DNA from: a virus
Virus record (IMG/VR): IMGVR_UViG_3300020084_000030
Location: 1 to 43,801 of that record
Length of the DNA: 43,801 nt
Direction: 5' to 3' (one strand)
Position 1 is the stretch's first letter, and each line of letters begins with the position of its first letter. A program made the translations under genes and the position numbers. The notes below the pieces were generated by a model. It did not search any database. It had not been told where the DNA came from and saw only the letters and a list, made by a program, of their open reading frames with translations. Positions 4,656-31,100 of the stretch are shown here, in pieces.

Positions 4656-4679
4656 GAATATACAGAGACCCTTCTTATG

Positions 4680-4687
4680 TATTTATT
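4680..4687 (-). promoter_or_regulatory. Late promoter octamer AATAAATA before gp13
   Basis: The minus strand reads TAATAAATACAT, 24 nt before the gp13 ATG at 4655. It overlaps the TAA stop of the U32/methyltransferase gene, a common layout in this window. Confidence 0.6.
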
Positions 4688-13595: not shown

Positions 13596-13652
13596 TTTTT
13601 ATTTTCCTTATAGTGGTCCTTGGTGGATAAACGTTTGTGCCTAACCTGGCAA

Positions 13653-14324
13653 TTATTTTGGTCCTACATTGTAGTCATAACTACCAAATCTAGCAACGAA
13701 ATAACCTTGATCATCAATGAAATAGGTTATCTTTCTTGCTTCAAACTTATACTGTTGATATTTATCATTGTTTTCATCGTTACTGAAAGATTTAACAATA
13801 CTAGTAACTCTAAAAGTTAAATCTGTAACATCATTAACTTTTGAAGAAGGAACTGTTACAGTTTCATTTGGAGAAAATTGAGCTCCTCCACTGTGAATAG
13901 CAACATTTGAAATATAACCTTGAGCATTTCTAGTAATTAAAAGATTTAGTCCTGATCCAGGTTTTCTATTTGATTCTCCTTCTCCATCACCATTTCCAAT
14001 TAATCCAGTTATTGTGTATGTCACATTAGCATCAGTTGAATTTTCAATGCCTCCAGAAATTAATTGTATTGTTTTAACACTACCAACTTCAACAACGTTA
14101 TTCCAAGCATCCATGAAATCAATTTGCTCTGTGCCATCAACATTAAAAACATCAATATTATCGTTATCTGCAGTGTTTGTTTTGGTATAAACAAGCATAC
14201 CATCAGCGTCTCTTCTTAGAGCATGAAAAGTAAAACGGTTTGAGGTGTTAAAGTATGAATACATGCTTCCCCCTCCAGATCCAACACTACTGCCCTGCCC
14301 AGATTCACTTAAGTAAAGTGCCAT
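13653..14324 (-). CDS. Probable virion structural protein of the fibre cluster
   Basis: This 223-aa protein has a Gly/Ser-rich start (GQGSSVGSGGGSMYSYFNTS), then beta-strand-rich sequence without a recognised family. Segments such as NRFTFHALRRDADGMLVYTK, VKTIQLISGGIENSTDANVTY and KITYFIDDQGYFVARFGSYD are amphipathic beta in character. A short 'GGAQFSPNETVTVPS' element resembles the GSGY-type turns of the giant baseplate proteins. Two late-promoter octamers lie upstream (14370-14363 and 14352-14345), the nearer 20 nt before the ATG, so expression is clearly late. The flexible glycine N-terminus may be a linker. A connector or small fibre role is inferred from context. Confidence 0.75.
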   Translation of the reverse strand: MALYLSESGQGSSVGSGGGSMYSYFNTSNRFTFHALRRDADGMLVYTKTNTADNDNIDVFNVDGTEQIDFMDAWNNVVEVGSVKTIQLISGGIENSTDANVTYTITGLIGNGDGEGESNRKPGSGLNLLITRNAQGYISNVAIHSGGAQFSPNETVTVPSSKVNDVTDLTFRVTSIVKSFSNDENNDKYQQYKFEARKITYFIDDQGYFVARFGSYDYNVGPK

Positions 14325-14344
14325 CTAAAAACCCCAACTTGAGT

Positions 14345-14352
14345 TATTTATG
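14345..14352 (-). promoter_or_regulatory. Late promoter octamer CATAAATA (proximal of a pair)
   Basis: The minus strand reads CATAAATAACTC, 20 nt before the ATG at 14324. It is one base from the T4 late consensus and 18 bp downstream of a perfect copy. Confidence 0.6.
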
Positions 14353-14362
14353 ATATCACAAG

Positions 14363-14370
14363 TATTTATA
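14363..14370 (-). promoter_or_regulatory. Late promoter octamer TATAAATA (perfect consensus)
   Basis: The minus strand reads TTATTATAAATACTTG. It is a perfect T4-type late consensus in the 57-base gap between the 245-aa and 223-aa genes. Confidence 0.7.
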
Positions 14371-14381
14371 ATAATTAACTA

Positions 14382-15119
14382 TTATGAATACACCTTCCAA
14401 AAATCTCCAGTCCAAACAATTGTAACCGTGACGCCAGCAACATCAAGAATATATGGACTATCTGTGTCTCCAGTTTGATCTTGGAATGTTTTTCCTGATC
14501 CTGCATCTAATATAACTGGATATGAATTCCAAGAATTTTTCATATCAGCAAAAACAATAGTATTACCTATGTTTGGATTTACTGGAAGAATTACTGTAAT
14601 ATCTGATTGTGTAGAAGAATTAGTTAAGGTATCTACTAAATATCTTCCACTGACTTGTGCAACAAAATTTTGTGTTTCTACACCAAAACTTGCGCCAGCA
14701 GCAATATTATTACTGCCTCTAACAATAAGGTCACCTTTAATTTCTACTACACCAGTAACATCATTATCATTATTTGGGTCAATAACAATATCACCAGTTG
14801 CTTTAACTCTGTTAACTAACAAACTATTCATGGTGAAATCGCCAGTGCTCTCAAGAATACTTGGAGTTACTGAGTTTGGAAACATATTGATAGTATTAAC
14901 CTTTCCCCAAGAAAGGACTCCATTACCATCGGTAATTAACATTTCGTTAGCAGCACCATCATCAACTGGCATTGTCAATGTATAGCTTCCAGTTAAACTG
15001 GATGGTGCTTTAAGAGACACAAATCTAAGTGTGCCTACATTAGTGCTTAATTTTACTGCGTTGTTATTTTCAACAACCAGTCCGTTTTTTACGGTAAATT
15101 CTTTGTTGTACGTAGCCAT
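14382..15119 (-). CDS. Short tail-fibre-like protein
   Basis: This 245-aa protein starts MATYNKEFTVKNGLVVENNN, then LKAPSSLTGSYTLTMPVDDG and GNGVLSWGKV (about residues 37-75). That is the same 'LKAP...YTLP...G.LSW' block found in the 499-aa fibre. A middle segment has repeated short strands (GDIVIDPNNDND, VEIKGDLIVRGSNN) typical of fibre shafts. Residues about 150-245 form a globular tip-like domain with RYLVDTL, DITVILPVNPNIGNTIVFAD and a WTGDFWKVY end, a pattern I know from other phage fibre C-termini. A GGGGAG ribosome site precedes the ATG. A receptor-contacting or attachment role in the fibre cluster is inferred. Confidence 0.8.
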   Translation of the reverse strand: MATYNKEFTVKNGLVVENNNAVKLSTNVGTLRFVSLKAPSSLTGSYTLTMPVDDGAANEMLITDGNGVLSWGKVNTINMFPNSVTPSILESTGDFTMNSLLVNRVKATGDIVIDPNNDNDVTGVVEIKGDLIVRGSNNIAAGASFGVETQNFVAQVSGRYLVDTLTNSSTQSDITVILPVNPNIGNTIVFADMKNSWNSYPVILDAGSGKTFQDQTGDTDSPYILDVAGVTVTIVWTGDFWKVYS

Positions 15120-15152
15120 AACGGTTCACTCTCCCCGTTGTAGTGTTAGAAA

Positions 15153-15160
15153 TATTTATG
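15153..15160 (-). promoter_or_regulatory. Late promoter octamer CATAAATA
   Basis: The minus strand reads AATCATAAATATTTC and overlaps the TAA of the 491-aa fibre gene. It lies about 34 nt before the ATG at 15119. Confidence 0.55.
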
Positions 15161-16631
15161 ATTTAATGGCAGTAGCAACTACCTTTACAGTAGTTAAAGT
15201 TGTTGCTGATGCTGGTGTGACCAAAAGACGAATATTGCCAGAATTAATATCAGCAGAATACGAAGCAATATATGTATCAGATGCTATAGCATTTTGCTCA
15301 GTTATAGTTACATCAATGCCGTTGTGTATCAATAATAGTTTTGATACATGTGTATTATTTCCCGATTTTGCTTGAATCAAATATTCCACTGAAGAGAATG
15401 TGGAAGCAGGGAGGGGGAGAATTGGATATTGCGATGTTGACCCCGTTGTATTTGAAGCAGATGTATAAACAGCAACATTATTAACAGATAACATAGTAGC
15501 AGACGCAATTCCTAAAGTTGGGTCTGTTAATATAGGAGAGGTTAAAGTTTTGTTGGTTAAAGTTTCTACATTATTTAAAGTAGAAAGAGTGCCACTCGTA
15601 GGTAACGTTACATCCGTATTAGCAGTGGTTGTTACACTCAAAGTATGAGCACCAGTGTGTGTAAAATTACCGCCAAGAGTAATTGTTTTAGTGCCATTAT
15701 TTACACCAGTGCCACCGTAGGTTGGCGAAATAATTGTGCCATTCCAAACACCATTAGCAAGTGTTCCTACTGAAGTTAGATTGGAAGAAACAATTCCACT
15801 ACCTAATGCAGTCGATCCAATTACAGTAGTGCCATTAATCTTATAAGTTTTTCCTTCGGCAAGATTCCAACTTTCAGAAGAAGACCACGAAGTATATCCG
15901 TGACTATAAGTTAAAGTAACTCCAGTAGTGCCAACATTAAATCCAGACCCATCAGCGGCAGCTGCACTACTTGTGCCGTTAGCAATAATTACAACTTTAT
16001 CGGTGATTGCTAAATCAGTAGTACTAATTGTAGTGGTAGCACCTTGTACTAGCAAATCCCCAGTAATAGTTAAATTACCAGATATAGTTGCTAATGTGCC
16101 ATTATCTCCGATGATTGAATCAGTAAACTGATTGTCGGTGTCATTCCACTTTGTTAGTTTATTTTGAGAAAGATTATCGCCATTTTTAATAGCAACTGTT
16201 ACATCAATACTACCATCAAAACTTGTGCCAGATAGTCCTGTGCCAATGGTTAATGTTTTATCAATTGCTGCTTCGATAGTAATATTTTGACTACCATCAA
16301 ATGCAATACCGTTGATTGTTCTTGCTGTTGCTAATTTTGTTGCAGTATCAGCATTACCAACTAACGCACCAGTAAATGACTGTGAAAAAATATTAGCAAA
16401 TTTGAAAGAAGATGACCCAAGATTATAAGTGGTGTTAGCAGAAGGTAATACAGTAGCGCCAAAAGAAGCGTTGGACATATTTGCCCTTGCTATTTCATAA
16501 CCACCAGCGGTTACTCCATCATGCAACCTCAAAGCATAGTTGCTAAGATTTACTGATAACTCACCTTGTGCTCCAGTAAAGTTATTATTTTGTGTTGCAG
16601 TGCCTCTTCTAAACTGTACTTGGGTTGCCAT
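15156..16631 (-). CDS. Tail-fibre protein with Mtd-like N-terminal anchor and shared C-terminal domain
   Basis: This 491-aa protein opens with MATQVQFRRGTATQNNNFTG, then QGELSVNLSNYALRLHDG. This is the basic 'FRRGT...GELxVDxxxxxLRLHDG' anchor seen at the N-terminus of phage fibres and of the major tropism determinant. The shaft has many Thr/Asn/Gly strands (GNLTITGDLLVQGATTTIST). A module TTDLAITDKVVIIANG (about 199-214) is shared with the 1641-aa protein. Residues about 414-491 (EYLIQAKSGNNTHVSKLLLI, then IDVTITEQNAI and SADINSGNIRLLVTPAS) match the C-terminus of the 1646-aa protein. An AGGAAA ribosome site precedes the ATG. It probably forms one of several alternative fibres. Confidence 0.85.
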   Translation of the reverse strand: MATQVQFRRGTATQNNNFTGAQGELSVNLSNYALRLHDGVTAGGYEIARANMSNASFGATVLPSANTTYNLGSSSFKFANIFSQSFTGALVGNADTATKLATARTINGIAFDGSQNITIEAAIDKTLTIGTGLSGTSFDGSIDVTVAIKNGDNLSQNKLTKWNDTDNQFTDSIIGDNGTLATISGNLTITGDLLVQGATTTISTTDLAITDKVVIIANGTSSAAAADGSGFNVGTTGVTLTYSHGYTSWSSSESWNLAEGKTYKINGTTVIGSTALGSGIVSSNLTSVGTLANGVWNGTIISPTYGGTGVNNGTKTITLGGNFTHTGAHTLSVTTTANTDVTLPTSGTLSTLNNVETLTNKTLTSPILTDPTLGIASATMLSVNNVAVYTSASNTTGSTSQYPILPLPASTFSSVEYLIQAKSGNNTHVSKLLLIHNGIDVTITEQNAIASDTYIASYSADINSGNIRLLVTPASATTLTTVKVVATAIKS

Positions 16632-16648
16632 TACTTTTTCCTATAATA

Positions 16649-17176
16649 TTATGGAGTATTTAAATCAACTTGATATAGTCTGCCTTCTGGACTCATCATG
16701 TCCCAAAAAGCAATAGTTGACACGCCAAAAGCATCTGTTGTATTTGCTAGTGGGTCGTTTGGATCTGAATTAGCGTTATAATCACCAGTAGGAAACAAGG
16801 AAAGTCCAGGAAGTTCAATCCACTGCACTCCAGATCCTGTTGTTGCCAGAACATTACCAGCCGCCCCTGTACTACCATTAGCAGTCAGAGTGCCTAATAA
16901 TTTTAAATTTGTCGCATTTACATAGTAACCATCCCAAGTTAAATTGGGAGATGACCCATAAGAACCATTATTATTAAATTGAAACTCTCCGTTATTTCCA
17001 GCAAGACTAGTAGCAGATCCAATATCAATAATTGATTCTACACCGTTTTGATTTTTTTTGAGGAATAATTTACCTTCAAAGGTATTGATGGCTAATTCAC
17101 CTAAGTCAAGTTGCCCCACCTCGGGAAATTTCCCAGGTACGGCTGTACGTTTAATTCTAATCTTAGGTGCTGCCAT
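16649..17176 (-). CDS. Short fibre/adaptor protein with basic N-terminal anchor
   Basis: This 175-aa protein has the N-terminus MAAPKIRIKRTAVPGKFP, then LDLGELAINTFEGKLFLKKN, which parallels the starts of the 499-aa and 491-aa fibres. NNGEFQFNNNGSYGSSPNLT follows (residues about 60-80), a common fibre-shaft motif. Then come short strands and an end rich in Asp/Pro (YNANSDPNDPLANTTDAFGV). It looks like a fibre with anchor and short shaft but no large tip, so it may be a connector or a natural short version. A GAGAGGAAG ribosome site and a CTAAATA late-type promoter lie upstream. Confidence 0.8.
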   Translation of the reverse strand: MAAPKIRIKRTAVPGKFPEVGQLDLGELAINTFEGKLFLKKNQNGVESIIDIGSATSLAGNNGEFQFNNNGSYGSSPNLTWDGYYVNATNLKLLGTLTANGSTGAAGNVLATTGSGVQWIELPGLSLFPTGDYNANSDPNDPLANTTDAFGVSTIAFWDMMSPEGRLYQVDLNTP

Positions 17177-17198
17177 ATGGCTTCCTCTCAGTCAGTGC

Positions 17199-17205
17199 TA
17201 TTTAG
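17199..17205 (-). promoter_or_regulatory. Probable late promoter CTAAATA inside a small palindrome
   Basis: The minus strand reads CCGCTAAATAGCACT, about 23 nt before the ATG at 17176. The element is embedded in the palindrome GCTAAATAGC. It deviates from TATAAATA at the start, so this call is weaker than the others. Confidence 0.4.
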
Positions 17206-17217
17206 CGGAGGGTGACT

Positions 17218-17439
17218 TTATGTAAAGTCTTCTTGGACAGTATTTACTGCCTTCTTTTTGGTTGTCCCAGTGGATTTATCAGATTCTAACTCGGTAATTT
17301 TTTCCCTAAGGGAGCTTACTGTCTGCGTTAGAATATTACCTCTGGTCTCTAAAATAATGTTTTGTTGGATTAAATCCGACAAACGCTTTTGATAAACTTG
17401 AATCAAAGAATTGTAATCAATTTCGACATCATTAGACAT
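17218..17439 (-). CDS. Small coiled-coil protein in the fibre cluster
   Basis: This 73-aa protein is helical almost throughout. Residues about 8-55 show heptad spacing of Leu/Ile/Val (YNSLIQVYQKRLSDLIQQNI, SLREKITELE), predicting a coiled coil. A Lys/Thr-rich linker and a polar end (KKKAVNTVQEDFT) follow. No family is recognised. It lies between two fibre genes with a TGGAG ribosome site. Small coiled-coil proteins in such places can be fibre chaperones or trimerisation partners, but this is only inferred. It resembles in style, not clearly in sequence, the 68-aa coiled-coil protein at 19727-19933. Confidence 0.75.
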   Translation of the reverse strand: MSNDVEIDYNSLIQVYQKRLSDLIQQNIILETRGNILTQTVSSLREKITELESDKSTGTTKKKAVNTVQEDFT

Positions 17440-17456
17440 AATTTACTCCATATAAA

Positions 17457-18956
17457 TCAGAATGTACCGCCATCCACGAGTGTGTTAATTAACTCAAAAG
17501 TGCCAGCGTTATTATTTAAAACTTGATTGGTTGCAGTGCCGAAGCTACCTAACCAAAGACCTTTCATCTGGACATTTGCTAATGTACCAGATAGTTGAGG
17601 ACCAGCGGCTTCAGTTGTATCATCTACAAATAAGAATCCAGTGTTTCCATCCCAGAAGATAGAAGATGTTTTTGCAGATGAGTCGTAGTAGTGGAATCTA
17701 AAACCACGGTCAGTCGAAGTTGCTGCTGATGGTGCAGCACCATTGACAGTGCCTAATTCTAAAACAGGGTCATCATATGTTGTGACGGTTGAATTAGAAG
17801 TAGTTGTGCTACCATTAACTGTTAAGTTACCAGAAACAGTTACGTTTGCTCCAGAAAGAGTAATAGCAGTTGATCCATCAGAAGCTTTAATATCATTGCC
17901 ATTTACTCTTAAATCACCTGCAACAGTAACATCATTACCACTATAAGTAATAGGAGAATTTACTAATTGGTCGTTAGTATTATCCCAACCCATAATAGTG
18001 TTATCAGTAAGAGCACCACCATTCTTTAGTTGAATATCATCAGCATTAACTGTAATACCGATACCAGCACCAACTGCTAAATCAACAGTTTGACCTTCGC
18101 TTGCTGAAGATGTCTTAGCAAGACCATCACCAGCAGTTACATCAGCAACATAGTTACCAGTGGTATCAGTGCCAAGAGCAACTGAGTTAGCTTCGATAGT
18201 TGCAGTTAGAGTTGCGTTAGCAAGGTCAGTGATAGTTACACTACCGCTTAAATCACCTGCAAGAGTGATTGTGAAATCTGCAACGTCGAAATCTAACTTT
18301 CCAGCACCGCCAGCATTATCTGTGTAGGTAACGGAAATGCCAGATTCGCTGTTGCTGCTAACCATAGCACCAACAATATCTTCAATTCTTTCTGCTGCAA
18401 TTGTTACTGCTCCATTCACAACAGAAAAATCTGAAGTCGGAAAATTAGCAACACCAGCGTTAGTATCTGTTGCCAATTCTGCAGCAATAGTAACTACGTT
18501 ATTGGTAATAGTTGTGTCAATACCTTCACCACCAGTAAAGGTGAGTGTTTCTCCTGTATTGATGGTATCTGTGCCAGTATCTCCAGCAATAGATAAATTA
18601 CTTACAACTTCTGCCCATGACATAACACCATTTACATCTGTCTTTAAGAAGTAATTTGCAGTAGGTGTTGCTGGAAGTGTGTAGGTAGTATTTGATGCTG
18701 AAGTATCTGGTGCTTTCAGTGAGACACTACCGCCACCACCAGCACCAGTTTTTGCGTGTAGTTTTACTGATTGCCCAGTAGTTGAATTTTCTTTAATCCA
18801 GTAGCGAGCAGACCCAAAAAATTTATTATTATTGGTTGTGCTATCAAGTCCCACATAAAAATTATATTCATCATTGACAAATGCTGGTTCACCTGCAGCT
18901 AATGCTGGGAGGTTTGCTTGCGTACCTCTTTTAAACTTAATCGTTGGTGCCGCCAT
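17457..18956 (-). CDS. Tail-fibre protein with basic N-terminal anchor
   Basis: This 499-aa protein begins MAAPTIKFKRGTQANLPALA and GEPAFVNDEYNFYVGLD, the anchor type of the neighbouring fibres. SVSLKAPDTSASNTTYTLPA follows (about residues 78-97), then GVMSWAEV, shared with the 245-aa protein. The shaft to about residue 350 is a run of Thr/Asn/Asp strands (TGTDTINTGETLTFTGGEG, DLSGSVTITDLANATLTATI). A VSGNLTVNGSTTTSNSTVTT and DDPVLELG block (about 375-402) is the counterpart of the modules in the 491- and 1641-aa proteins. The last 90 residues contain RGFRFHYYDSSAKTSSIFWD. It was probably duplicated from a common fibre ancestor. A TAGGAC ribosome site and CATAAATA late promoter lie upstream. 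Confidence 0.85.
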   Translation of the reverse strand: MAAPTIKFKRGTQANLPALAAGEPAFVNDEYNFYVGLDSTTNNNKFFGSARYWIKENSTTGQSVKLHAKTGAGGGGSVSLKAPDTSASNTTYTLPATPTANYFLKTDVNGVMSWAEVVSNLSIAGDTGTDTINTGETLTFTGGEGIDTTITNNVVTIAAELATDTNAGVANFPTSDFSVVNGAVTIAAERIEDIVGAMVSSNSESGISVTYTDNAGGAGKLDFDVADFTITLAGDLSGSVTITDLANATLTATIEANSVALGTDTTGNYVADVTAGDGLAKTSSASEGQTVDLAVGAGIGITVNADDIQLKNGGALTDNTIMGWDNTNDQLVNSPITYSGNDVTVAGDLRVNGNDIKASDGSTAITLSGANVTVSGNLTVNGSTTTSNSTVTTYDDPVLELGTVNGAAPSAATSTDRGFRFHYYDSSAKTSSIFWDGNTGFLFVDDTTEAAGPQLSGTLANVQMKGLWLGSFGTATNQVLNNNAGTFELINTLVDGGTF

Positions 18957-18986
18957 TTAATGTCCTATCTATACGATTTCTTTTAC

Positions 18987-18994
18987 TATTTATG
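18987..18994 (-). promoter_or_regulatory. Late promoter octamer CATAAATA
   Basis: The minus strand reads TTCATAAATAGTAAAAG, 31 nt before the ATG at 18956, in the 49-base gap after the 112-aa gene. Confidence 0.6.
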
Positions 18995-19005
18995 AATTAG
19001 AATAA

Positions 19006-19344
19006 TTAAAATCCACCGCCATCAACATCAATAAGATTGTCAAGCTCGACATCCAATTCATCAATAAAGGATTGTGGCAATCCAGGTGATGTAAGATCTG
19101 TTGCCGCAGTTGCGAGCACAACATCTGGATTGACAAATTTATATTTTTTTAAAGCAGCATCATAAACCATTACATAATGATTTGTAGTATTTCCTACTTT
19201 ATCCAAAGCAGAGGAATCTACATTTCCTAAATCTTCTAGTGACTGTGCCAAGAGCTGTGTGGTGGATAAACGGAGATTTGTTGCTGAAGTTAATTGAGCG
19301 GTAATATTATTACCATATGTCATTTTTATGCGATACTCTGACAT
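19006..19344 (-). CDS. Small virion-type protein of the fibre cluster, unknown
   Basis: This 112-aa protein starts MSEYRIKMTYGNNITAQLTS. A helical region (LRLSTTQLLAQSLEDLGNVD) and a beta hairpin (NHYVMVYDAALKKYKFVNPD) follow, the latter of the 'fibre display' type seen in phage and bacterial repeat proteins. The C-terminus is acidic and ends DVDGGGF, reminiscent of the VDGGTF end of the 499-aa fibre. The start is the ATG at 19344 with AGGAG seven bases upstream; an in-frame TTG just before it is not needed. It overlaps the stop of the 110-aa gene (TGATG), so the two are coupled. Its structural role is inferred. Confidence 0.75.
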   Translation of the reverse strand: MSEYRIKMTYGNNITAQLTSATNLRLSTTQLLAQSLEDLGNVDSSALDKVGNTTNHYVMVYDAALKKYKFVNPDVVLATAATDLTSPGLPQSFIDELDVELDNLIDVDGGGF

Positions 19345-19676
19345 CAAGTAACTCCTGGTGATACGGTTACGATTCCTTCTGCTACTCTGGTTTTTACCCC
19401 ACCGCTGGATGTAATAACCAAATCATAAACATAACGTCCAGGTTTTAAAAGTTTGGTAGCAAAATTGCCCATTGATAATTTTAACTTACCATCTGATCTA
19501 TTGATAAATGAAGTGCCAAAATTATTATATGACGAAGAAGTATGAGTTTTTCTAATTTTTGCTTCGGCTGTATAACCAGTCAAATCCAATGGTAGATTAT
19601 TTGCTGATGTCACAGTAAACTGTGCCTCAAAATCTGCTCCTTGCTCCACAACTAAATTTACAGGTATGGCTGCCAT
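19344..19676 (-). CDS. Small beta-sandwich phage protein (BppU N-terminal / Ig-like type)
   Basis: This 110-aa protein has the pattern VVEQGADFEAQFTVTSANNL, PLDLTGYTAEAKIRKTH and then LLKPGRYVYDLVITSSGGVK and VAEGIVTVSPGVT. This strand order (ligand-free beta-sandwich with 'PxDLTGYTxxxxIR' and 'GxYxYDLxxT' strands) is typical of small phage baseplate or fibre-associated domains such as the BppU N-terminal type. The similarity is by pattern only. It lies directly behind the terminator/late-promoter element at 19687-19719 and couples to the next gene. It probably acts as an adaptor between the baseplate and fibres. Confidence 0.75.
   Translation of the reverse strand: MAAIPVNLVVEQGADFEAQFTVTSANNLPLDLTGYTAEAKIRKTHTSSSYNNFGTSFINRSDGKLKLSMGNFATKLLKPGRYVYDLVITSSGGVKTRVAEGIVTVSPGVT
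19352..19356 (-). promoter_or_regulatory. Ribosome binding site fixing the start at 19344
   Basis: AGGAG on the minus strand lies seven bases before the ATG at 19344. This supports ATG over the preceding in-frame TTG at 19347. Confidence 0.65.
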
Positions 19677-19686
19677 CGCTACCTAC

Positions 19687-19719
19687 AAAAAACCCTTCGT
19701 ATGATATTTATACGAAGGG
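19687..19719 (-). terminator. Strong intrinsic terminator with a late promoter in its loop
   Basis: The minus-strand sequence has a perfect 10-bp stem, CCCTTCGTAT (19719-19710) with ATACGAAGGG (19702-19693). The 7-base loop is AAATATC, and a run of six T (19692-19687) follows. It lies between the coiled-coil gene (stop at 19727) and the 110-aa gene (ATG at 19676). It is the clearest terminator in the window and would end transcripts of the giant fibre genes upstream. Confidence 0.88.
19705..19712 (-). promoter_or_regulatory. Late promoter TATAAATA (perfect) inside the terminator hairpin
   Basis: A perfect late consensus begins in the last three bases of the 5' stem arm and runs through the loop. 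It lies about 28 nt before the ATG at 19676. Transcripts starting from it would begin within or after the 3' arm and so escape the hairpin. Confidence 0.7.
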
Positions 19720-19726
19720 GGGAGAA

Positions 19727-19933
19727 TTATTCTTCAGTTGTAGTTTCTTCTTCAGGTAACTCACCCAAATCTTCAGATTCGGATTTTTCAAGCAATTCGA
19801 GAGTTTCTAAACCACCTTGTAATTTGAGTTTATACTCTTGTGCTTTTGCCAACTCTGCTTGAATCTGAGCAATTTTTTCGTCAATTTCTTTGAGTTGATT
19901 TTGAAAATTTTCTTTCAGACCAGTAGTATCCAT
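19727..19933 (-). CDS. Small coiled-coil protein
   Basis: This 68-aa protein, MDTTGLKENFQNQLKEIDEK onward, shows a heptad pattern to about residue 45 (IAQIQAELAKAQEYKLKLQG), then an acidic tail rich in Glu. It is probably a coiled-coil trimer or dimer. The ATG at 19933 is preferred over an in-frame TTG at 19954. The late-promoter octamer at 19965-19958 would place the transcript start at or after that TTG. It lies between the 1646-aa fibre gene and the terminator. A chaperone or assembly role for the giant fibre is inferred from size and place. Confidence 0.7.
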   Translation of the reverse strand: MDTTGLKENFQNQLKEIDEKIAQIQAELAKAQEYKLKLQGGLETLELLEKSESEDLGELPEEETTTEE

Positions 19934-19957
19934 ACGCTTAAAATAACAACACAATGC

Positions 19958-19965
19958 TATTTATT
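19958..19965 (-). promoter_or_regulatory. Late promoter octamer AATAAATA within a hairpin, with extended -10 look
   Basis: The minus strand reads GTGCTATAATAAATAGC. The octamer sits in the inverted repeat GCTAT-AATAA-ATAGC (19970-19956). The same stretch also contains TGCTATAAT, an extended -10 type sigma70 element. It lies about 25 nt before the ATG at 19933. Confidence 0.5.
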
Positions 19966-19977
19966 ATAGCACGGATG

Positions 19978-22900
19978 TCAAGAGATTACGTAATTTTTTT
20001 GAATAATCAAACGATTTAAATAATCATTTCCATCAAATGCAGGAGTATAACGTAATCTAACATTACCCCCAGAAATGTCTGCAGTAAATGCTCCGAGTAA
20101 TCTATTATTAAAAATAGTTGAATACTCTGTTACATAAACATCTGTGCCATCATTTAAAAGCATTAACTCCGTTGAATGAATATAATTGTTGACTGTATTT
20201 TTAATTTGAATTAAATATTTTGCTGTATAAACAGATGATACTCCAAATGAATCAACAGTAATGGTTGCCGAAGAAGTGGAATCTATAACTTCTAAATTAT
20301 CTAAAATTCTAACAATTTTTAATACACCATAGTTTTGTGTATCATTACCAGATTGATAATACAGGAAAGGCGGAGCATTTTGTGGTACTGTAAATCTAAC
20401 AGTAGTATTACTACCATTACCGTTACCAATAACACCAGTTGTATATAAATTTGCTCCAATAGGACCAGGAGATGTAACAATATTAAATGGGTGACCCGTT
20501 ACATCTCCTAATCGAAATACATATTCTTTACCAGGAATTAATTGTAAATCGGGTAAAACACCCAAATCTTGTGAAATATTTACATCTAAAATTTTATATC
20601 TATTGGTTTCTTTGGTAATTTCAAATGTTGATACACCAGCAACTCCAACACCAATTTCTATCTCGCTTGGATTTGCAGGAAGTAATCCAACATTTCCTAA
20701 TAAAGTCCTAGGTCCTATATTTTGTAGTTTTCCTAAAGTAATTCCTTTTTCTTTAATATCAATAACATTTTGAGGATTGATATCAAATAAACTAAATTTA
20801 TACCTAGCAACACCTAAACTACTAGATCCAGATGTTTGTCCTGAAGAATATGTAGCAGCATTTACATCTAATTCTAAGAAACCACTCTCATGAATAGATC
20901 CAACTGTTACTTGACCACCAGAAATATAACTACCAGGATTTGTAGACTTTGCTACAGTAAAAGTATCGCTATCGACTAATGTAATTTGATATGTGCCATT
21001 AAATGTATCTGGAATTATCCCTTCTACTTCTACAAAATCCCCATCATTTAATAGGTGAGCAACAGAAGTATTGAATGTAACTAAATTTGTAGATGCACTC
21101 CATGTTGCTGATGAAATATTTTTTGAGACACCAGTTTTTTTTAGAATATCTCTAGTGCCGCCAACAGAAATTGCTGAGTTTATTGGAGGTAAAATACCTT
21201 TAACTACAGGAGTAAATTTACTGATACCACTTAAATAAGTATCTTCGTTTGGTACTCCAGTGCCTAATCTTGACGGGGATAAAATGCCAGAAACAATGGC
21301 AGAAGCATCTAGTTGATTTAACGATAGTAATTCCCAATTATCTGGGTCTGTTGCTGGTAAAGCAGTGAGAATCCAAGTTTGCACTACTGTATTTGGATCT
21401 CCATCTAACTCATTCTTTTGTACTGCTATATCTCCAGGTTTTAATGCATTACCAATAAATGTTAACGTTTGACCAGCGGTAAGTGTTGGTAGTGATTGAT
21501 CTACGGTAATCGTTTTATTAACAACATCAATTCCACCAATTACAATTCTAGTATTAGCTGGAATTCCTGTACCAGTTATTAAAAGACCATCACGTAAATT
21601 TGTTACACTGTTTAAAACAATAGTATTTGTAGTATTACTAACAACAGTTTTATATGCTACAGGAATATATTCCTGTAGTCTTTCTGTATCAGTTTCAATT
21701 GTATAAACTACAAATTGTTGTGTTTGTGGTAATTGAGAAACATCAATTTTTCCGTTAGAATCTAATTGTACAATTAAACCAGGAATACTTGCGGTGCCTT
21801 TGTTTAATCCAATAAAGTTTCCTAATACAGAAGATTTGTTGATATAATCTCTGACTGCTTTTTGAGTCGGTAATACAGTATGAGCCGCACCAACTACTCC
21901 GCCTAAAGTATCATCTGGAGAAAATTTAAATATTGGTACTCCAGGAGATCCTTTAAGTTGTAAAGAATCTAATACTCCAAGAGCAACAGATCCATTAAAT
22001 GTTACTTTACCGCTTCTTAAATCTACATTGAAAAATTGACCGACACTAAAATTACCGCTTTGATCTGTAGCACTAACATAACATTTTCCAGAATCTATTT
22101 CAACATTTTGTGTTGCTGTGACAGTGACACCACCATTTTGTGGAAATGCAGTATAATTAATTCCAGACCCTACATACTCAAAAGTGTGCCCAGAACTATT
22201 AACTGTTGATGGCGAGAATAATTGAATTTGTGCGTTATTTGCTATTGCTGCTACTTGAGCATTTGTTAATGGAAAATTGGTCGTAAATTGAGTATTATTT
22301 CCTTCGTTGTAACTTAATACTTCCCCTACTACTTGCTCATTTCCATTTGGATCTAAACCTAAACCAGGAATTTTAATAATATAATTTGGAATTGGTGGTG
22401 CTTGGAAACCAGTTACGGTTACTTTAGTAAATACGGATCCAGTTGCAATAGTAATTTCTCCAGTAGAAGATCCTGGTGTATTAGCATAATTAGCATTCCA
22501 TGCAGTATCTAAAATAATAGAAATTCTATTAGTTTGAAAATCTACGCTATCAATGATTCTTCCAGTGCCATTGATTGATGGAGTAGAAACATGATTAGCA
22601 ATTGTTATTGCTTGACCTCTTTCAAATTTTCCAATATCTACAATTGAAACTTCTATAGTAACTTTTGTTTTAGTATTTCCAGCTGTTGAAGAAAATACAG
22701 TTCCTATAATACTACTTGGTGTTTGATTTATATCAGTTTTTGTAATATTCTGTACTGAAGAAACTTGCCCTGCAGAAAAAATGGGCAATACATTATCAGA
22801 AAAACCAACTGCTTTTAATCCTTCTATACCAAAGTTTGTAGCAGAGTTAGTAATAGAAGCATACCCGCCAGATTCACAAAGTACACCTACTGCTTCAAAA

Positions 22901-24918
22901 ACTTGGAAAACAGACACCAACTGTGAATATGCATCATTCTTCATATGGAATCCAATGGACCCAAATACAATTTGAGTAAACGCATCAGCAACCATTGATT
23001 CTAATGGACTGTTGCTATCTAATTGAGCACCATCCGCCAAAAGACCGCCAGCCCTTGTTTTAGAAGCATCATAAGTTTTGGTAAGAGGATTGTAGGATAC
23101 TTTACCTAATTTAGAAATACATGAGCAGTTTTGAGTATATGGAGATAAGAAAATTCTTTCTTTTGGTGGAATAATTTTATATGTGGTAAGTAGTTTACCT
23201 TGCCCAGCAGGTATAGGAGCACTCAATACTAATTCATCATTTGAATTAATACTATTAATTGTATAACTATTGCTACCAATTTTGATTTTCCAACCTACAT
23301 ATGCTTCTTCTAAAAATCTGGTGGACAAGTTACCAGTAACAATAGGACTACCAACTGTTAAGTTGATTCTTCCTTTTCCTTTTATCCCGCTTTGCTCTGG
23401 ATATGCTACTGCATATCTCCAAGCAAATGCATCTTGAGAGACAAATGCACCAGTAACATGTCTCTTAGCGGTCGTTGCCACTCCTGTGATTGGATCTGGT
23501 TGTCCTCTAACAACAATCAATTCTCCAGTGGTAGTGTTAAAATCATACACTTTCATCCACTCTTGATCTACTAAAATAAAACCAGGACCAGGACGATATG
23601 GTGGCACATCACCACCTTGAATAATCGATGTTACAATACCAATAAGAGTATCGATTGTATTTTGTACTTTAGTACATTCTGGGAATCCTGTTAAATCTGG
23701 AAGAGGATCTGGATATCCTGCATTTAGAAAACCAGGAGGGACCGTTAAAATCTTTTGTTTTGCATGATAAGCAACTCTCTCAAAAGAGTAGACTAATTCT
23801 ATTTCTTCGCCAGCAACAGCAGCGATTAAAAATCCATCGGCATCTAAATATGATTCTCCACTTTTTACAGATTTTACATTTCCTCCACTTCTTAAATCAG
23901 CAACTATACCATCAATAACAATACCAAGATCCCTGCGGCAAATAAGTTCGTCATAATCTGGATCATTAATCAGAGCGGGAAATTGAGTGAGTAAATCAGT
24001 AATTGCTAAATTTATAATATCTGTTTTTTGAAATTCAATTAAATTAGATCCATCAAAATATACTCCTTCAACTCTAGAAAGAGTGTGCCCAGGTAATACT
24101 CTAAAAGTAGTATCAGTTGCTGATAAAATTCTATTGTCTGATTGCTCTGTTTCTAAAAATCCTTTACCGCCTTGGAAGTTATCCTCAAATACCATGTAGT
24201 TGATATAACAACCAGAAGTAACCCAAAAAATATCTCTACCTTCATTTTTTGGAATTACAATAGTTTCTCTTAAGTTATCACCTACAATTGAAGTTCCTTT
24301 TGGTAAGTAAATAGGATTTTCTTCGTAGTATGTGCCAGTAGAAACTCTAATAGTAGTATTACCATCTAAAGCAGCAGCTGCCCGTGCTGCCGCCCTAATT
24401 GATTTAAATGCTTTTGAAGGACTTTTCCCAGACTTAGAATCGTTGCCGTCTGTTTTTACATATAAAACATTGGTATAGTCTGCGTCTCCTAAAGAAGTTG
24501 GAGACCCCCATCCACTAACTGTTTTAGGTCCGTATAATTCTTTTGTAACACTATTATAATAATAGTCATTAAGTTTTCCTTGGGTGCTTAATGGCGCAAC
24601 AACACCAGATAAAATTTGCTCGGAAATAGAAATAGTTGATGCTGGCCAAGATCCATTTGTTTTGGGACCATATAAATCTTTCTTAACAGTATCTAGATAA
24701 AAGTCTCCATTAGCACCATCCGCAGATGTAGGTGGCAGTGTGCCACTTAATAATGATCCACCATCATCTCCAGCGAGGGAAATTTGATTAATAGCAGTAA
24801 CTAAATTAGGTAGTCCACTAACAAGTTGGCTAATGTCTCCTACATCAGTAGCAAGAGAATTAATCTCCTGTCTCTGTTGATCAAAGGTATAACTTTTGGG
24901 AACGTTTCTAATTGCCAT
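19978..24918 (-). CDS. Large beta-helix fibre/baseplate protein with cupredoxin-like and shared C-terminal domains
   Basis: This 1646-aa modular protein has an anchor-like N-terminus (NVPKSYTFDQQRQEINSLAT). Two repeats of the type DFYLDTVKKDLYGPKTNGSW fall at about residues 70-130. A right-handed beta-helix begins near 151 (LYVKTDGNDSKSGKSPSKAF, then SIVGDNLRETIVIP). CYVSATDQSGNFSVGQFF lies near 944, followed by LPTQKAVRDYIN, both shared with the 1641-aa protein. Then come an 'HLLNDGDFVEVEG' binding-loop module, a cupredoxin-like domain at about 1436-1536 (KEYVFRLGDVTGHPFNIVTS), and a C-terminal domain (about 1566-1646) shared with the 491-aa fibre. The ATG overlaps the stop of the 70-aa gene (TAATG). 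Position suggests a gp9/gp10-region fibre network component; no T4 homologue is recognised. Confidence 0.85.
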   Translation of the reverse strand: MAIRNVPKSYTFDQQRQEINSLATDVGDISQLVSGLPNLVTAINQISLAGDDGGSLLSGTLPPTSADGANGDFYLDTVKKDLYGPKTNGSWPASTISISEQILSGVVAPLSTQGKLNDYYYNSVTKELYGPKTVSGWGSPTSLGDADYTNVLYVKTDGNDSKSGKSPSKAFKSIRAAARAAAALDGNTTIRVSTGTYYEENPIYLPKGTSIVGDNLRETIVIPKNEGRDIFWVTSGCYINYMVFEDNFQGGKGFLETEQSDNRILSATDTTFRVLPGHTLSRVEGVYFDGSNLIEFQKTDIINLAITDLLTQFPALINDPDYDELICRRDLGIVIDGIVADLRSGGNVKSVKSGESYLDADGFLIAAVAGEEIELVYSFERVAYHAKQKILTVPPGFLNAGYPDPLPDLTGFPECTKVQNTIDTLIGIVTSIIQGGDVPPYRPGPGFILVDQEWMKVYDFNTTTGELIVVRGQPDPITGVATTAKRHVTGAFVSQDAFAWRYAVAYPEQSGIKGKGRINLTVGSPIVTGNLSTRFLEEAYVGWKIKIGSNSYTINSINSNDELVLSAPIPAGQGKLLTTYKIIPPKERIFLSPYTQNCSCISKLGKVSYNPLTKTYDASKTRAGGLLADGAQLDSNSPLESMVADAFTQIVFGSIGFHMKNDAYSQLVSVFQVFEAVGVLCESGGYASITNSATNFGIEGLKAVGFSDNVLPIFSAGQVSSVQNITKTDINQTPSSIIGTVFSSTAGNTKTKVTIEVSIVDIGKFERGQAITIANHVSTPSINGTGRIIDSVDFQTNRISIILDTAWNANYANTPGSSTGEITIATGSVFTKVTVTGFQAPPIPNYIIKIPGLGLDPNGNEQVVGEVLSYNEGNNTQFTTNFPLTNAQVAAIANNAQIQLFSPSTVNSSGHTFEYVGSGINYTAFPQNGGVTVTATQNVEIDSGKCYVSATDQSGNFSVGQFFNVDLRSGKVTFNGSVALGVLDSLQLKGSPGVPIFKFSPDDTLGGVVGAAHTVLPTQKAVRDYINKSSVLGNFIGLNKGTASIPGLIVQLDSNGKIDVSQLPQTQQFVVYTIETDTERLQEYIPVAYKTVVSNTTNTIVLNSVTNLRDGLLITGTGIPANTRIVIGGIDVVNKTITVDQSLPTLTAGQTLTFIGNALKPGDIAVQKNELDGDPNTVVQTWILTALPATDPDNWELLSLNQLDASAIVSGILSPSRLGTGVPNEDTYLSGISKFTPVVKGILPPINSAISVGGTRDILKKTGVSKNISSATWSASTNLVTFNTSVAHLLNDGDFVEVEGIIPDTFNGTYQITLVDSDTFTVAKSTNPGSYISGGQVTVGSIHESGFLELDVNAATYSSGQTSGSSSLGVARYKFSLFDINPQNVIDIKEKGITLGKLQNIGPRTLLGNVGLLPANPSEIEIGVGVAGVSTFEITKETNRYKILDVNISQDLGVLPDLQLIPGKEYVFRLGDVTGHPFNIVTSPGPIGANLYTTGVIGNGNGSNTTVRFTVPQNAPPFLYYQSGNDTQNYGVLKIVRILDNLEVIDSTSSATITVDSFGVSSVYTAKYLIQIKNTVNNYIHSTELMLLNDGTDVYVTEYSTIFNNRLLGAFTADISGGNVRLRYTPAFDGNDYLNRLIIQKNYVIS

Positions 24919-25130
24919 TACTTACCAGCTATTTCTCTTAAAAGATTTTTAATTTCCGATAATTCACCTTTAAGAATCTCTACATCTTCTGTCAATCCTT
25001 TAATAATTTCACTAGGAGATTTAGATTTTCTGGTGCTATCAAATAAACTTTTATCTGTATTTATTATAGCACCAGTCATGTTATCACGATATAAATTTTC
25101 ATGACCACATACTTTAGAATAATTATTCAT
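24918..25130 (-). CDS. Small virion-associated protein with Cys/His pair, unknown
   Basis: This 70-aa protein starts MNNYSKVCGHENLYRDNMTG, then AIINTDKSLFDSTRKSKSPS, and ends in a helical coiled-coil-like tail (EILKGELSEIKNLLREIAGK). The VCGHENLYRD...GAIINTD motif is familiar from small proteins of marine T4-like phages, but its function is unknown to me. The ATG at 25130 overlaps the TAA of the 2844-aa gene, and its own stop overlaps the next ATG (TAATG both times). It is therefore translationally coupled on both sides. A longer frame starting at 25178 lies inside the upstream gene and is not needed. Confidence 0.75.
   Translation of the reverse strand: MNNYSKVCGHENLYRDNMTGAIINTDKSLFDSTRKSKSPSEIIKGLTEDVEILKGELSEIKNLLREIAGK
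25058..25065 (-). promoter_or_regulatory. Possible internal late promoter AATAAATA
   Basis: The minus strand reads GTGCTATAATAAATACAG inside the 70-aa gene, about 140 nt before the 1646-aa fibre ATG. Fifteen bases are identical to the promoter region at 19958-19972. The codons here also encode a plausible protein segment, so chance is possible. Confidence 0.3.
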
Positions 25131-28100
25131 TAAAATGCCGCCACAATTCTGGCGTCTTGTATTTTTGGTACATAACAAGGATTAGATGCTTTCATTACAA
25201 TTTTAATTGCAAACGATGAGAATTCATTTAAATTTACTGCAGTATACTTATGCTCTTTATATGAAGATTGATTTTCAAATAAACCAGCAATTGCAATTTC
25301 ATTAGATGGTGCTACATCAAAATCTGGATATCCAGTACCATTAAAGGGTATATACTCAACATCATCAAAAGTACTTTGTGAATTAACTGGTTTTATTTTA
25401 TAGTAAACTTCAATATCATCTTGTTTTGCTAAATTAGCCGTTAATCTTACATCAATTGTTGTTGCTGGGTTTGCTAAAGTAATTTCTTTTGTTACATATT
25501 TTGCAACAGAAGAACTATTTTTAGAATTTATATCAGAAATGTATAGTATTCCAGGTGAATAAGTAGCAGAGGAAACCTCAATAAATCCTGGCACAGATTC
25601 ATTTGTATCAGTTAAAGATTGAGGAGCAATATTTTGATGCCATAGTTTGTCATATACGCGAATAATATCTGGTTGTTGGTTAGCACCATTGTTTGCAGAA
25701 GATCTTCCATATGTATTTCCTTCTGCATATGCAGTATAGTTGCCATTAATCGGTGCTTTTTCTTCTAAAACGACCAATTCTTTTTTAATTTTATCCCAAG
25801 AAATAATTTTTGCATAAATTTTAGTTGAAAATCTATTTACTAAATCTTCACGGTAAACTTCTACATTAGTGCCAGGAGTAAATACAGGCAATACTTCTGT
25901 TATACCATTTGGAGAAACAGAGGCACCATCTAGATTTTGGACACCAAAAGTTAATGCTTCGCCAGCTTGATATAAACCAGTGTTTTTAATTTTAACATAT
26001 ATGGTATTGCTTGTTACTTTTATAATATCTCCTTTAGTTTTTGTGTTAACACCTACCACACTTTGATTAATCGTTGGTAATATAGCTTGACCTCCCTGTC
26101 CAGCTGGTAAATTAGAAACTTCAAATTTATAAACTGGATAGAATTTTAATATTTTATATCTTCTTCCATATCTAGTTTGGTCACCATATCCTTTATCAAC
26201 AAATGATGAAATTGTTTTTACTGACGAAGATCGTAAATCAATTATTGGTGATAAATGATCTAATGTAGTGCTAAAGGTTAGTTTATAAACTAAAGATTTT
26301 TTCTTTTCCCCCCATGTTGCATTATTTTTTATCTCATTAAAATAAGACGCAATAACTTTTTGATTTGTAAAATAATGCTCTTCGTTTAAAAATGTAGTTT
26401 CATAATCTGATTGTTGATACGAAGTATAATTTTCGCCCACACTATCTAAAGGAATTATATTTGTAGTTTTTACTTCCGCATTAAATTTTGTATTAGTAAA
26501 TGAGAGATATCCGATTTGTGGGTATAATTTTTCATATTTTCTATTATATGAAGCAAGGATTTTATTTCCTCCTCCAAAAGTAGAAGATCCCGCACCCAAA
26601 TTTGTAGTAATATTATAATATTCTAATCCAGAATTTGAAACTGGGAAAAGATTTGTATTAAAATATTCACCGTCTATTCCACCAACTGTATTTACTTGTT
26701 TAAATGTTACATATGATTTCCCAGAATCTTCAAATCCATTATTAATATGTAAAATTCTAGTAATTTTATTATTATTTTTGAATAATAAAGATGTAGCAGA
26801 ATCATTGGATGAAGCGTCGGTCTCTATAGAATTCATATCTAACATTTCATAACCCAAATCTTCATTAGTCAATCTAGCAGTAGCAGTTGATCCTTTTGTG
26901 AAAACTGCTCTATATAAAGTAAATTTAATATCTTGACTTAAATCTTCTGTCCAAGTATCAACATTTTGTGATTTAAAAACTGATCCTAATAAAGGTTGTT
27001 GAGTAATTACCTGTGAAGTAGCTACATCAGTTTCTCCTAATTTAGATGACCATATCCTATAATTAGTAGAATCTGTTTCAATAGATAAAGCATAATCAGT
27101 ATTATTTTGTAAATAGATTGGATTGTCAAAAACAAATTTTGTTGGGGAAATAGATGATGTAGTTACTCCATCATTAGGATCTACAGAAACCCCCATTCTA
27201 ACTGCAGGAGTATCTACTTCTAAAATAGGAATAATTACAGCTTCTCTACTAATAGATCCATTTGGTTTCAAAATAATAGAAGGTGGGTCGGTATATCCTG
27301 ATCCTGGCAAAATAATATTTGCTTCAAATACTTCACCATTAGAAATTGAAACATTACCTAAAGCACTACTTCCTCCAGGAAGTTGAGGACTTTGGATGAT
27401 TAATGTAGCAGAATCATATCCCTCACCGTAATCTGTTATGAGTAATTTTGAAATTTTTCCAGAATCTTTAGATATAGAAACAAGTAACTGACTATTATTT
27501 TGTTTGTTAATATCAATTAAAGTTTGTATTACTAATGATTCTCCAGATTTAAATGCAGATCCAGTAGCACTGATATAATTTGATAAAACGAGAGTATATA
27601 CTTGATCGTTACTCAAAGAAACAGTTTTTTGCAGCGTGGGGACTAATTTATTTCCGTTTTTATCAACTACCTCTTTTACTACTCCTTTAACACCAGATTC
27701 ACTACCAGAAATAGTTTCACCAATTGTCAAATTTAAAGTAGAATTAGCAGTTATTTTTAAATAAGTATCTGGTAGCTTAACTACTTCTGTTCCTGGTATA
27801 ATATAGTTGCCAGGTTTCTTACTATTTGTATCTGTTAAATATACTCTTACTGGTAAAGTATCGCTTTTTTTAGAAAAGAATAAATCTAATTCAGTTACAA
27901 ACACACCGCCCTCAAAATTTTCTATTCTAAATGTTTGTGATAAAGGACTTGGTTTTGCTTGAGTTGATGCATTATCAATAAATTGAATTCCTTCTGGTGC
28001 TTTAAAGAAAGATGGAATTGTAGAAATAATAGATGCTGGTTGATTTGGAAAAATACCAGTAGGATAATACTTACATTCAGCAAAACTATCTACAGTATTA

Positions 28101-31100
28101 TCAATTTTATCTTCTGTGCTAGTTGTAAATCTTATAGTTTTAATTCCTGCGGCAAAATTTAATTTTAATGCCCCGTCTTCATTATCATATGATACTGTGT
28201 TAATGTCTCCTGTCCATGAAGCATTTTGCACTGGGGCATAACCAGCTGGAAAAATTAAAATGCCGCTGGCATCTCCATTTTCATTTGATGTAATAGCATG
28301 ACCATTATCTCCATTAGATCCAAATGCACCAACTGAATTGCCAGGAATCTGAGTAAATCTAGTATCTTGTGCCACCCATCTAGTTACATTACGAGTATCA
28401 ATAAAAGCATAATATTTTGTATTTGGTTTTAATCTTCTAACAATAAATTTAATAGCTTTAGATCTAGCATAAAGTTGAATAGACGAGGACACTATTTTAG
28501 ATCCGTTACTTACACTTTGCACTCCTTTACCAATCTCATTATTTTGTGGACTTATATTTGAGCTAGTTGAAACAGTGGCTGGTAAAATAGTAGTATTGCT
28601 ATTTGATGTTACTTCGCTTAAAGAACTAACATTAAAGAAAGTTCTATTTGTACCTATCCAGTTTGTCAAATAAAAATTATTTAAACTAGAATATCCCTCT
28701 CTTGAATCTGCCTTTGATAAGAAAACCGAAAATACCTTTGTGTCATTATTCAATACAGAAGGACTTTGCTTAATATCATACCAATGATCAATATTTGGAG
28801 AAATTGACAAATCTCCAACGTATTGGACCACTACAAAAGGATTTGGATTTATTTCTCCGCTAGCTGTGGCAAATTTATTTTGAATTACTGTTTGTGGAGT
28901 GTATGGTAAAGTGATGACATCTCCAGTCCTTACATAACCATCAGTTGCTCGTTGTTGAGCAGATGTATTTAACTCCACTAAAGAATAAGAATTTTCTATT
29001 GATCTTGGTCTTAAAATAGATTGTTGAGTATCAATAGCACATTTGTAATCTAAAGATGGTAAATTGCCAACTGCGTGATTTTCAAAACTATCTACAATAA
29101 TACCAGATTTAAATCTATCTAATCCAATATCATCTTTTACTTGCATATTAAAAGTTTGCTGCTCTAGAATACTCATTGTAGTATAATATTCTAATCTTTC
29201 TATGCGTTTTTCTAACTTACCAATATCACGCATAGTATATCTTCTATTATCTACAGCAGTTACTCTTACATCAGCAACACTATTTGTATATGCTGGTAAA
29301 AATAGATAATATAATGCTATTGAATCATCTGGAGTTTCTGGTTTTGATGGATTCAATGAAGAATTTCCTTTTTTAGCAATAAATTCTCCTTTTTTATTTA
29401 AGAAAATTCCATCAATTCTATCTAAGTATTGTTGACTATTAAAAATTATTGATGCTTCTAAACTAGCATCATGTGCTACTGCAGCAGATGGAATACCGCC
29501 AGATCCATTAAATCCTATTGATTCGCCAGACAATAATAGTGTTTTATTTTGGAATCCAGATAAAATAGTATTTACATCAACTTTTGGTCTAAAATCAACT
29601 ACATCTGTCAAAGAAACTTTTCCTAAAACGGGAGAATTGAAACTAGGTATATCAGATATGGGAGTGCCAGTTAAAGTATACGAATCTACAATAGAAAAAT
29701 CTCCTTGTGAATGCTCAAAATAATTAAAAACAATCACTAATTGTCCGATTGGAGCAGAATATCCTGGTTTTAAAACTAATCTAGAAACATCATAAAATGT
29801 GTCTCTTTGACCATCATCAAAAGTAAAATGATCTGTAATATCAAATCCATCTATTATATTATTTTGATCATCTAAAACAGGTGGACTTGAAGTAGATCCT
29901 TCAAAAACTTTAATGTCTGTGCCATAAATTCCAAATGCATCTGCATACGAGATTACATCTGCAGTTTTTTCATCATAGTCATATCCTCTAAATGGTATTA
30001 TTTTATCTCCACTTGACACTACCGCAATACGTTTGTTTCGGATAGCAACTTTAGTTTTAGGGGAAGCTTTATCTATTTCGATAGTAGCAGATAATTTTAA
30101 CACTACATTTGATGCTGCCGCAGCATCAGTACGAAATGTTAAATTATCTAACGTAATTGCCACCCCACCAGTTAATGTTTGTGCAACTTGATCTTTGGTG
30201 AGATACATTACATCACCATTTTCTAATCCAGTATTTGAATTTCCTTTGTCTAAAATAGTGAGTAAGAAATTACTTTCTTCAAAATCTATGAATCTTTGTG
30301 TACCAAATTTTAATTGTGCCGAAAACGTAATTTTTCCGCCAGAAGTAGAAGAAGTAGTAATAAAATCTCTTCTTATATAATACTTAAATTTTGTATTATC
30401 ACTATCCTGAATTAATGATTTTGGTGATTTAAACCCAATTGGAAATAATAACGATGGATTTGGAGGACTAGTTAATTTTGTCCTTTTTCTAACAATAACT
30501 GAATTATTAACATCTGCTTTTAAAGCAGTATCTAAGTATATTGCTGCTTTAGATAATCCTGAGGGAGATGATACAGATTCTACTAGACTTCGTACTACTG
30601 TATTATTAACGTCAATATATTGAATAATATCTCCAGGCACCAAATCTTTTGCTGGATCTCCAGAAAAAGCTAAACAAATTAAATATTTCTGTCCTTTCTT
30701 ACCAGAAAAAGTTAATGTAGTTATATCCTTACTAACAGAATATTCAGTATCAAAAGTTTCTACATCAGCAGTAAATTTATTTACGCCACCACCGCCAAAT
30801 TCAGAGTAAAGTGACTTTACATTTTCGTTTGTATAAGTTGTAATTACATTTTTAAATAAAACCGCTTTTACAACTGCAGTTTGTGTTGGATTAACGCCAG
30901 AATCACTGTTTATTATTACAGACGGCGGTGATACATATTCATCACTAAACAAATTTCTATCTATGATAGATACGCTGATAGCTTTTCCTCCTACCAGTTG
31001 GGGTTTAATTATAGAAACATCAACTGCTTTTCCATTAATAGAAATTGGTTTTGAAGCAACAACTGAAGTTGATTGGGCATAACCACTTCCTCTTTTTGTC

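Follow-up and report, generated by a model that had tools for sequence, protein, structure and literature searches.

The element described here has its closest relatives in two known kinds of arrangement, composite promoter-terminator units (PeSLs) and late promoters placed in regulatory hairpins (T4 e, soc, 49, and I-TevI). In PeSLs (Arbiol 2010; Comeau 2014), a stem-loop reportedly stands beside an early sigma70 promoter. For the second kind, PMC3014915 describes leaders of T4 e, soc, 49, and I-TevI whose inhibitory RNA hairpin includes a late promoter in its 5′ strand; for gene e, upstream-initiated transcripts fold this structure, and late transcripts without its 5′ part escape its effect. 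A further point of comparison comes from bacteria, where, according to the excerpted text of PMC11347151, RNA polymerase stays on the DNA after hairpin termination and restarts at the nearest promoter in vitro, and where a short terminator-to-promoter distance can favor restart by the same polymerase, a process called recycling termination.

The present locus lies in a 43.8-kb linear IMG/VR virus record, the whole of which was analyzed and is referred to as the window. Its recognizable genes are all on the minus strand and have the content of a T4-type virion (terminase small subunit, tail sheath stabilizer, gp14- and gp13-like neck proteins, fibers, and baseplate wedge), and its gp13 protein is closest, among isolates, to that of Synechococcus phage S-BM3 (61% identity). 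The source is a marine relative of phage T4, and the element's lineage is one of uncultivated marine T4-like phages. The element (19719-19687, minus strand) separates a small phrog_580 gene (19727-19933, minus strand, ATG start at 19933), whose stop codon is 7 nt upstream of the hairpin stem, from an L-shaped tail fiber assembly-like gene (phrog_1084, phrog_3304; 19344-19676, minus strand), whose ATG at 19676 is 16 nt past the stem end and 28 nt past the octamer.

Read on the minus strand, the element is CCCTTCGTAT-AAATATC-ATACGAAGGG, then TTTTTTG. The hairpin at 19719-19693 has 10 perfectly matched base pairs and a loop of 7 nt, its 5′ arm CCCTTCGTAT at 19710-19719, its loop AAATATC at 19703-19709, and its 3′ arm ATACGAAGGG at 19693-19702, and is directly followed by a T6 tract at 19687-19692. 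The GC-bearing stem, the short loop, and the T tract immediately 3′ of them are those of an intrinsic terminator. RNA covering 19730-19675 folds at -14.6 kcal/mol (z -2.63), with 2 of 200 shuffles equally good, and the element ranks at the top of the 15 terminator-like sites found in 12000-31000, a region in which shuffles lead one to expect 8.6. A T4-type late promoter octamer, TATAAATA, occupies 19712-19705 on the same strand; its first three bases close the 5′ arm on the loop side, and the remainder lies in the loop. Sequence, folding, and the terminator scan thus confirm two observations of a preliminary description of this DNA, namely, a perfect 10-bp stem with T6 forming a minus-strand terminator and an octamer spanning the 5′ stem edge and the loop of that hairpin.

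Judged from sequence and its comparison among relatives, the element is probably a composite in which an intrinsic terminator is built around a T4-type late promoter, with predicted stop and escape roles. Polymerase that has read through the structural genes upstream would transcribe the full hairpin and U6 and then stop. In the same DNA, gp55-directed polymerase would bind the octamer and begin its RNA within the 3′ arm, about 6 nt further on. The T4 late octamer occupies positions -13 to -6, with the start about one helical turn downstream (accessible part of PMC2988020), which puts the predicted start here at ~19699, within the 3′ arm. Because such late RNA would lack the 5′ arm, it could not refold the terminator and would read on into the tail-fiber-assembly gene. 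In folding calculations, RNA from the predicted late start does not form the terminator and upstream-initiated RNA does, in agreement with the earlier proposal that RNA from this promoter would be unable to fold it. Termination, initiation, and the start point are what we infer from this layout. Ribosomes that finish translating phrog_580 might interfere with hairpin folding and so weaken the terminator, as the stop codon and the stem are only 7 nt apart.

The promoter half of this reading draws on where late octamers occur. Their number is not enriched in the window, as TATAAATA was seen 4 times versus 8.0 expected. Their placement is not random: the strand bias of ATAAATA is 13:1 in favor of the gene strand, and 11 of the 15 minus-strand [AC]TAAATA sites lie in spacers, 20-41 nt upstream of a gene start. 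Five further [AC]TAAATA sites are on the plus strand, where no genes were recognized. We also compared two sets of homologous loci, the first made of 80 loci of the tail-fiber-assembly gene plus the window (81) and the second of 80 loci. [AC]TAAATA was present 10-75 nt upstream of the tail-fiber-assembly homologue in 81/81 loci of the first set and 79/80 of the second, suggesting that the promoter is old. A phrog_234 (gp55-type) late sigma gene was found in 4 of 15 related records (G004, G017, G018, and G020), the other records being mostly short, and one of the four, the 94.5-kb relative G004, combines it with two composites. No match to a gp55-type late sigma was found in the 43.8-kb window, which is a genome fragment.

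The hairpin has a much narrower distribution. Composites of hairpin and octamer were found in 3/81 loci of the first set and 8/80 of the second, in the nearest relatives only; in the second set they occur in exactly the eight most similar genes (69-100% identity) and are absent from the remaining 72 (≤56% identity). Stem and octamer nevertheless occur together more often than chance allows. Of 497 distinct ATAAATA contexts at protein-selected loci, 16, many of them orthologous copies, place the motif in a terminator-like hairpin, versus 19 of 18,470 for other 7-mers of five A and two T. A separate scan gave 6 per 390 for ATAAATA versus at most 1 per 596 for control motifs, and with the octamer kept in place and its flanks shuffled, 0.00, 0.02, and 0.05 composites were expected on average versus 2, 4, and 6 seen in 45, 35, and 31 distinct contexts.

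The arms themselves differ among relatives (CCCTTCGTAT, ACCCCTCGTAT, CCCTTCTTAT, and CCCCTTCTTAT). When 13 distinct elements of one geometry were aligned, with rows chosen for having a composite, 7 of 12 pairs were changed on both sides. This value was reached by 0 of 500 shuffles, slid controls gave 0-2, and the octamer did not vary in any column. The best-supported double change joins columns 9 and 23 (U-A in nine rows, G-C in four); several others depend on a single row each. The percentage of paired positions is partly built in, since composites were recognized by their pairing and four rows (L304, L311, L312, and L129) came from pattern scans that fixed part of the stem. The alignment omits types of other geometry (L383, L384, L392, and L394), identical copies, and L180, L301, L305, L308, L366, and similar elements. 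Comparison of the intergenic region among relatives, which the preliminary description had proposed, thus found arms covarying around an invariant octamer. The case that would have spoken against its idea that the late promoter is nested within a terminator, an octamer lost from a stem that is kept, was seen in none of the orthologous spacers, and the reverse, an octamer kept with the 5′ arm lost, is common. This nesting is further favored, on comparative grounds, by the co-occurrence of octamer and covarying stem and by the late sigma genes of longer related contigs.

The arrangement is also found in front of a second gene. Composites lie upstream of the gp13-like neck gene in 10 of 81 loci and use several stems, including AATTCCCTGCTTC-loop, TACCCTTCCTA-loop, and long-loop forms, with unrelated stems in L392/L398, L383/L386, and L384/L385; at 38 of the 81 loci, no octamer was within reach of gp13. 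The stem CCTTCTTAT/ATAAGAAGG with any loop of 3-8 nt was found in 30 viral contigs, of which 20 hold TATAAATA and 10 have other loops. In all 20 of the octamer-holding contigs, the stem is 12-20 nt 5′ of the ATG of a tail-fiber-assembly or gp13 gene, and these elements mostly have T-rich tails. Other gp13 loci carry the octamer at the stem edge (L372, L373, and L443) or have a separate strong terminator followed within a few nucleotides by a late octamer (L368 and L374-L376). The 193-kb record G018 has 11 strong plus-strand terminators, among them a gp13 composite (143,578) and a CTAAATA form (178,186); in G020, a strict terminator scan returned no composite and a looser one found a gp13 composite (L542).

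Within the window, the gp13-like gene (phrog_211, head-tail adaptor Ad2; 3843-4655, minus strand) is preceded by what appears to be a decayed composite. Its spacer (4700-4655, minus strand) retains the octamer core ATAAATA (4680-4686, minus strand) and, by comparison with L366, L371, and L305, a residual 3′ arm ATAAGAAGGG (4669-4678, minus strand); the 5′ arm is gone and the T run is broken. Similar decay was seen in G001 and L367. The octamer is thus kept where the 5′ arm and a clean T run are lost, suggesting that the promoter survives without the terminator. Promoter and stem would then differ in age, the promoter being the older, constant part around which the stem was built, gained, and lost in the lineage.

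The same loci bear on the alternative that survives best, although we hold it to be rather unlikely: the octamer would be a working late promoter and the hairpin a passing by-product, unselected as a terminator. The 3′ arm would owe its conservation to being where the late leader begins, and a 5′ arm would arise occasionally by quasi-palindrome (template-switch) mutation. Such an origin would fit a near-universal octamer with a sporadic hairpin, and it would fit the gp13 loci in which the 3′ arm GAAGGG is kept without a 5′ arm (the window, L367, L369, and L370), which indicate that something other than termination may keep part of the stem in place. However, both members of 7 of 12 pairs have changed, several unrelated stems occupy the same place, and the T run mostly accompanies a complete stem, being broken in two loci that have lost the 5′ arm, the window and L367; together, these patterns argue for selection on the terminator. 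Template-switch repair could copy changes from one arm to the other, yet it leaves the T run unexplained. The T-run argument is itself weakened by L369 and L370, which are without the 5′ arm yet have GTCTCTTTG like L371.

The presence of near-identical elements before two different genes raises another possibility, that the element serves mainly for recombination and, as a PeSL-like cassette with a late promoter, has passed from gene to gene through homologous exchange. In locus L091 of record G010, a phrog_580-like gene is directly 5′ of a CTAAATA composite and gp13. Set against the window, where the phrog_580 gene precedes the fiber-assembly gene, this arrangement hints at movement of the gene plus the element. 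Nevertheless, two target genes dominate, and phrog_580 precedes the fiber-assembly copy alike in the window, L082, L083, L090, and L092. We therefore consider a mainly recombinational role unlikely, and it could in any case add to a role in transcription.

Translational control of the kind exerted at T4 e, soc, and 49 would have early read-through RNA hide the ribosome site and late RNA leave it free. The logic would be the same, the late promoter being placed within the hairpin's 5′ strand (excerpts of PMC3014915), but the ATG is 16 nt beyond the stem, a weak SD-like GUAGG lies outside the hairpin, the stem is paired with neither the SD nor the start codon in the folds, and the T6 tract would have no explanation; this makes translational control very improbable. 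Still less can be said for a terminator or mRNA 3′-end hairpin with a coincidental or disused octamer, which would suit the good hairpin with its T6 and the ease with which AT-rich loops contain an octamer by chance, but which is at odds with [AC]TAAATA being present in 79/80 and 81/81 loci, hairpin or not, with an octamer that is invariant while the arms change, and with the mere 16 nt between stem and ATG, a spacer in which the downstream gene would have no other promoter if the terminator works.

If the composite reading is right, its place in the gene cluster is more modest than first thought. The preliminary description had seen in it a means of separately dosing the two halves of the fiber cluster. 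Five further late octamers (18993, 17205, 15159, 14369, and 14351) lie in the block downstream of the element, and this block ends in another fiber gene of 1641 aa, indicating that the element is one of several start points and not a single boundary between giant and small fiber genes; the case for separate dosing is therefore weak, and any effect on gene dose would be a prediction. The suggestion that the arrangement recurs held in part, with copies before gp13 in relatives and the decayed one at 4686-4669. It did not extend to the two sites originally put forward, since the palindrome at 19956-19970 is broken in L083, L084, and L085 and that at 17196-17205 is short and without a T tract.

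Searches beyond this lineage returned few comparable elements. A strict scan of eight isolate T4-like genomes including T4, with 160 kb of the 241 kb of S-SRM01 covered, found the octamer in 0 of 377 terminators, and a looser scan of isolates gave 3 composites per 620 octamer sites versus 80 per 63,966 control sites, suggesting that the composite is rare outside this lineage. The excess over background is about fourfold and small, and we claim little from it. The three candidates are in Methylophilales phage Melnitz-3 (~76,318-76,356, after tRNA-Leu and before a Gp5 OB-domain gene), in Synechococcus phage DSL-LC02 (120,668-120,693, a CTAAATA form in a 38-nt spacer), and, a weak one, in S-SRM01. 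Among isolate phages, there was no DNA near-identical to 18700-20700, no match to the 46-base element, and no match to the phrog_580 gene; the L446 form of the element gave six weak matches. The only Rfam hit, to manA-II (23.9 bits versus a gathering score of 100), was taken as chance, and the pattern CGTATAAATA...ATACG matched at least 80 loci in viral contigs, most of them short chance palindromes. Two phage contigs of 29% GC (L097 in G012 and L143 in G015) hold TATAAATA in a 14-bp perfect palindrome, AATAGTCGTATAAA-TAA-TTTATACGACTATT. In L121, an octamer lies in the arm of an 18-pair hairpin immediately 5′ of a gene starting MAIAGIDYSLTSPAVC.

The anatomy of the element, its placement, the co-occurrence and covariation of its parts, its recurrence before a second gene, and the late sigma gene of longer relatives support the composite reading. 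Two opposite transcription signals are written on the same 33 bases and evolution holds both, the promoter constant and the arms covarying. The layout amounts to a compact design rule that can be searched for, with the octamer in the loop, the predicted start in the 3′ arm, and a T run just after, and the candidates in Melnitz-3 and DSL-LC02 offer cultured test material. By analogy with bacterial polymerase, we can also imagine, as a doubtful extension, that a terminated polymerase stays on the DNA over the octamer and restarts at once with gp55, gp33, and the sliding clamp. The element is a clean test case for such on-the-spot restart, which, if true, would be a phage use of recycling termination, coupling downstream output to traffic on the upstream operon while the upstream message is discarded.

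Compared with the loci that have a separate terminator and then a late promoter (L368 and L374-L376), the composite brings the same two signals to the same place before gp13; there they are two successive elements, whereas here they share the same 33 nt. Unlike PeSLs, it nests a late promoter in the hairpin and sits between virion genes, and no sigma70-like minus-strand promoter overlapping 19687-19719 was found among the best 60 of 84 sites. Like PeSLs (in part from PMC4503421), it combines terminator and promoter in a compact intergenic unit found more than once in a phage genome. Unlike in bacterial recycling termination, terminator and promoter overlap here, and no gp55-polymerase counterpart was met in the portions of the literature covered. 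A literature search that included the available parts of PMC4503421, PMC9004378, PMC3037559, PMC3014915, PMC2988020, PMC11347151, PMC10134795, PMC5931544, and PMC5348500, with Arbiol 2010 and Comeau 2014 outside its scope, turned up no account of a terminator enclosing a late promoter; within that search, the nesting of a late promoter in a terminator loop with covarying arms is what is new here. The T4 e, soc, 49, and I-TevI leaders, as far as the cited excerpts describe them, have in common with it an octamer placed in the DNA that encodes the 5′ side of a hairpin (a position demonstrated for gene e). They differ in that the present hairpin is terminator-like, with T6 after it, the ribosome site outside it, and the octamer mostly in the loop. 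By analogy, the predicted escape logic is that of T4 gene e, moved here from translation to termination.
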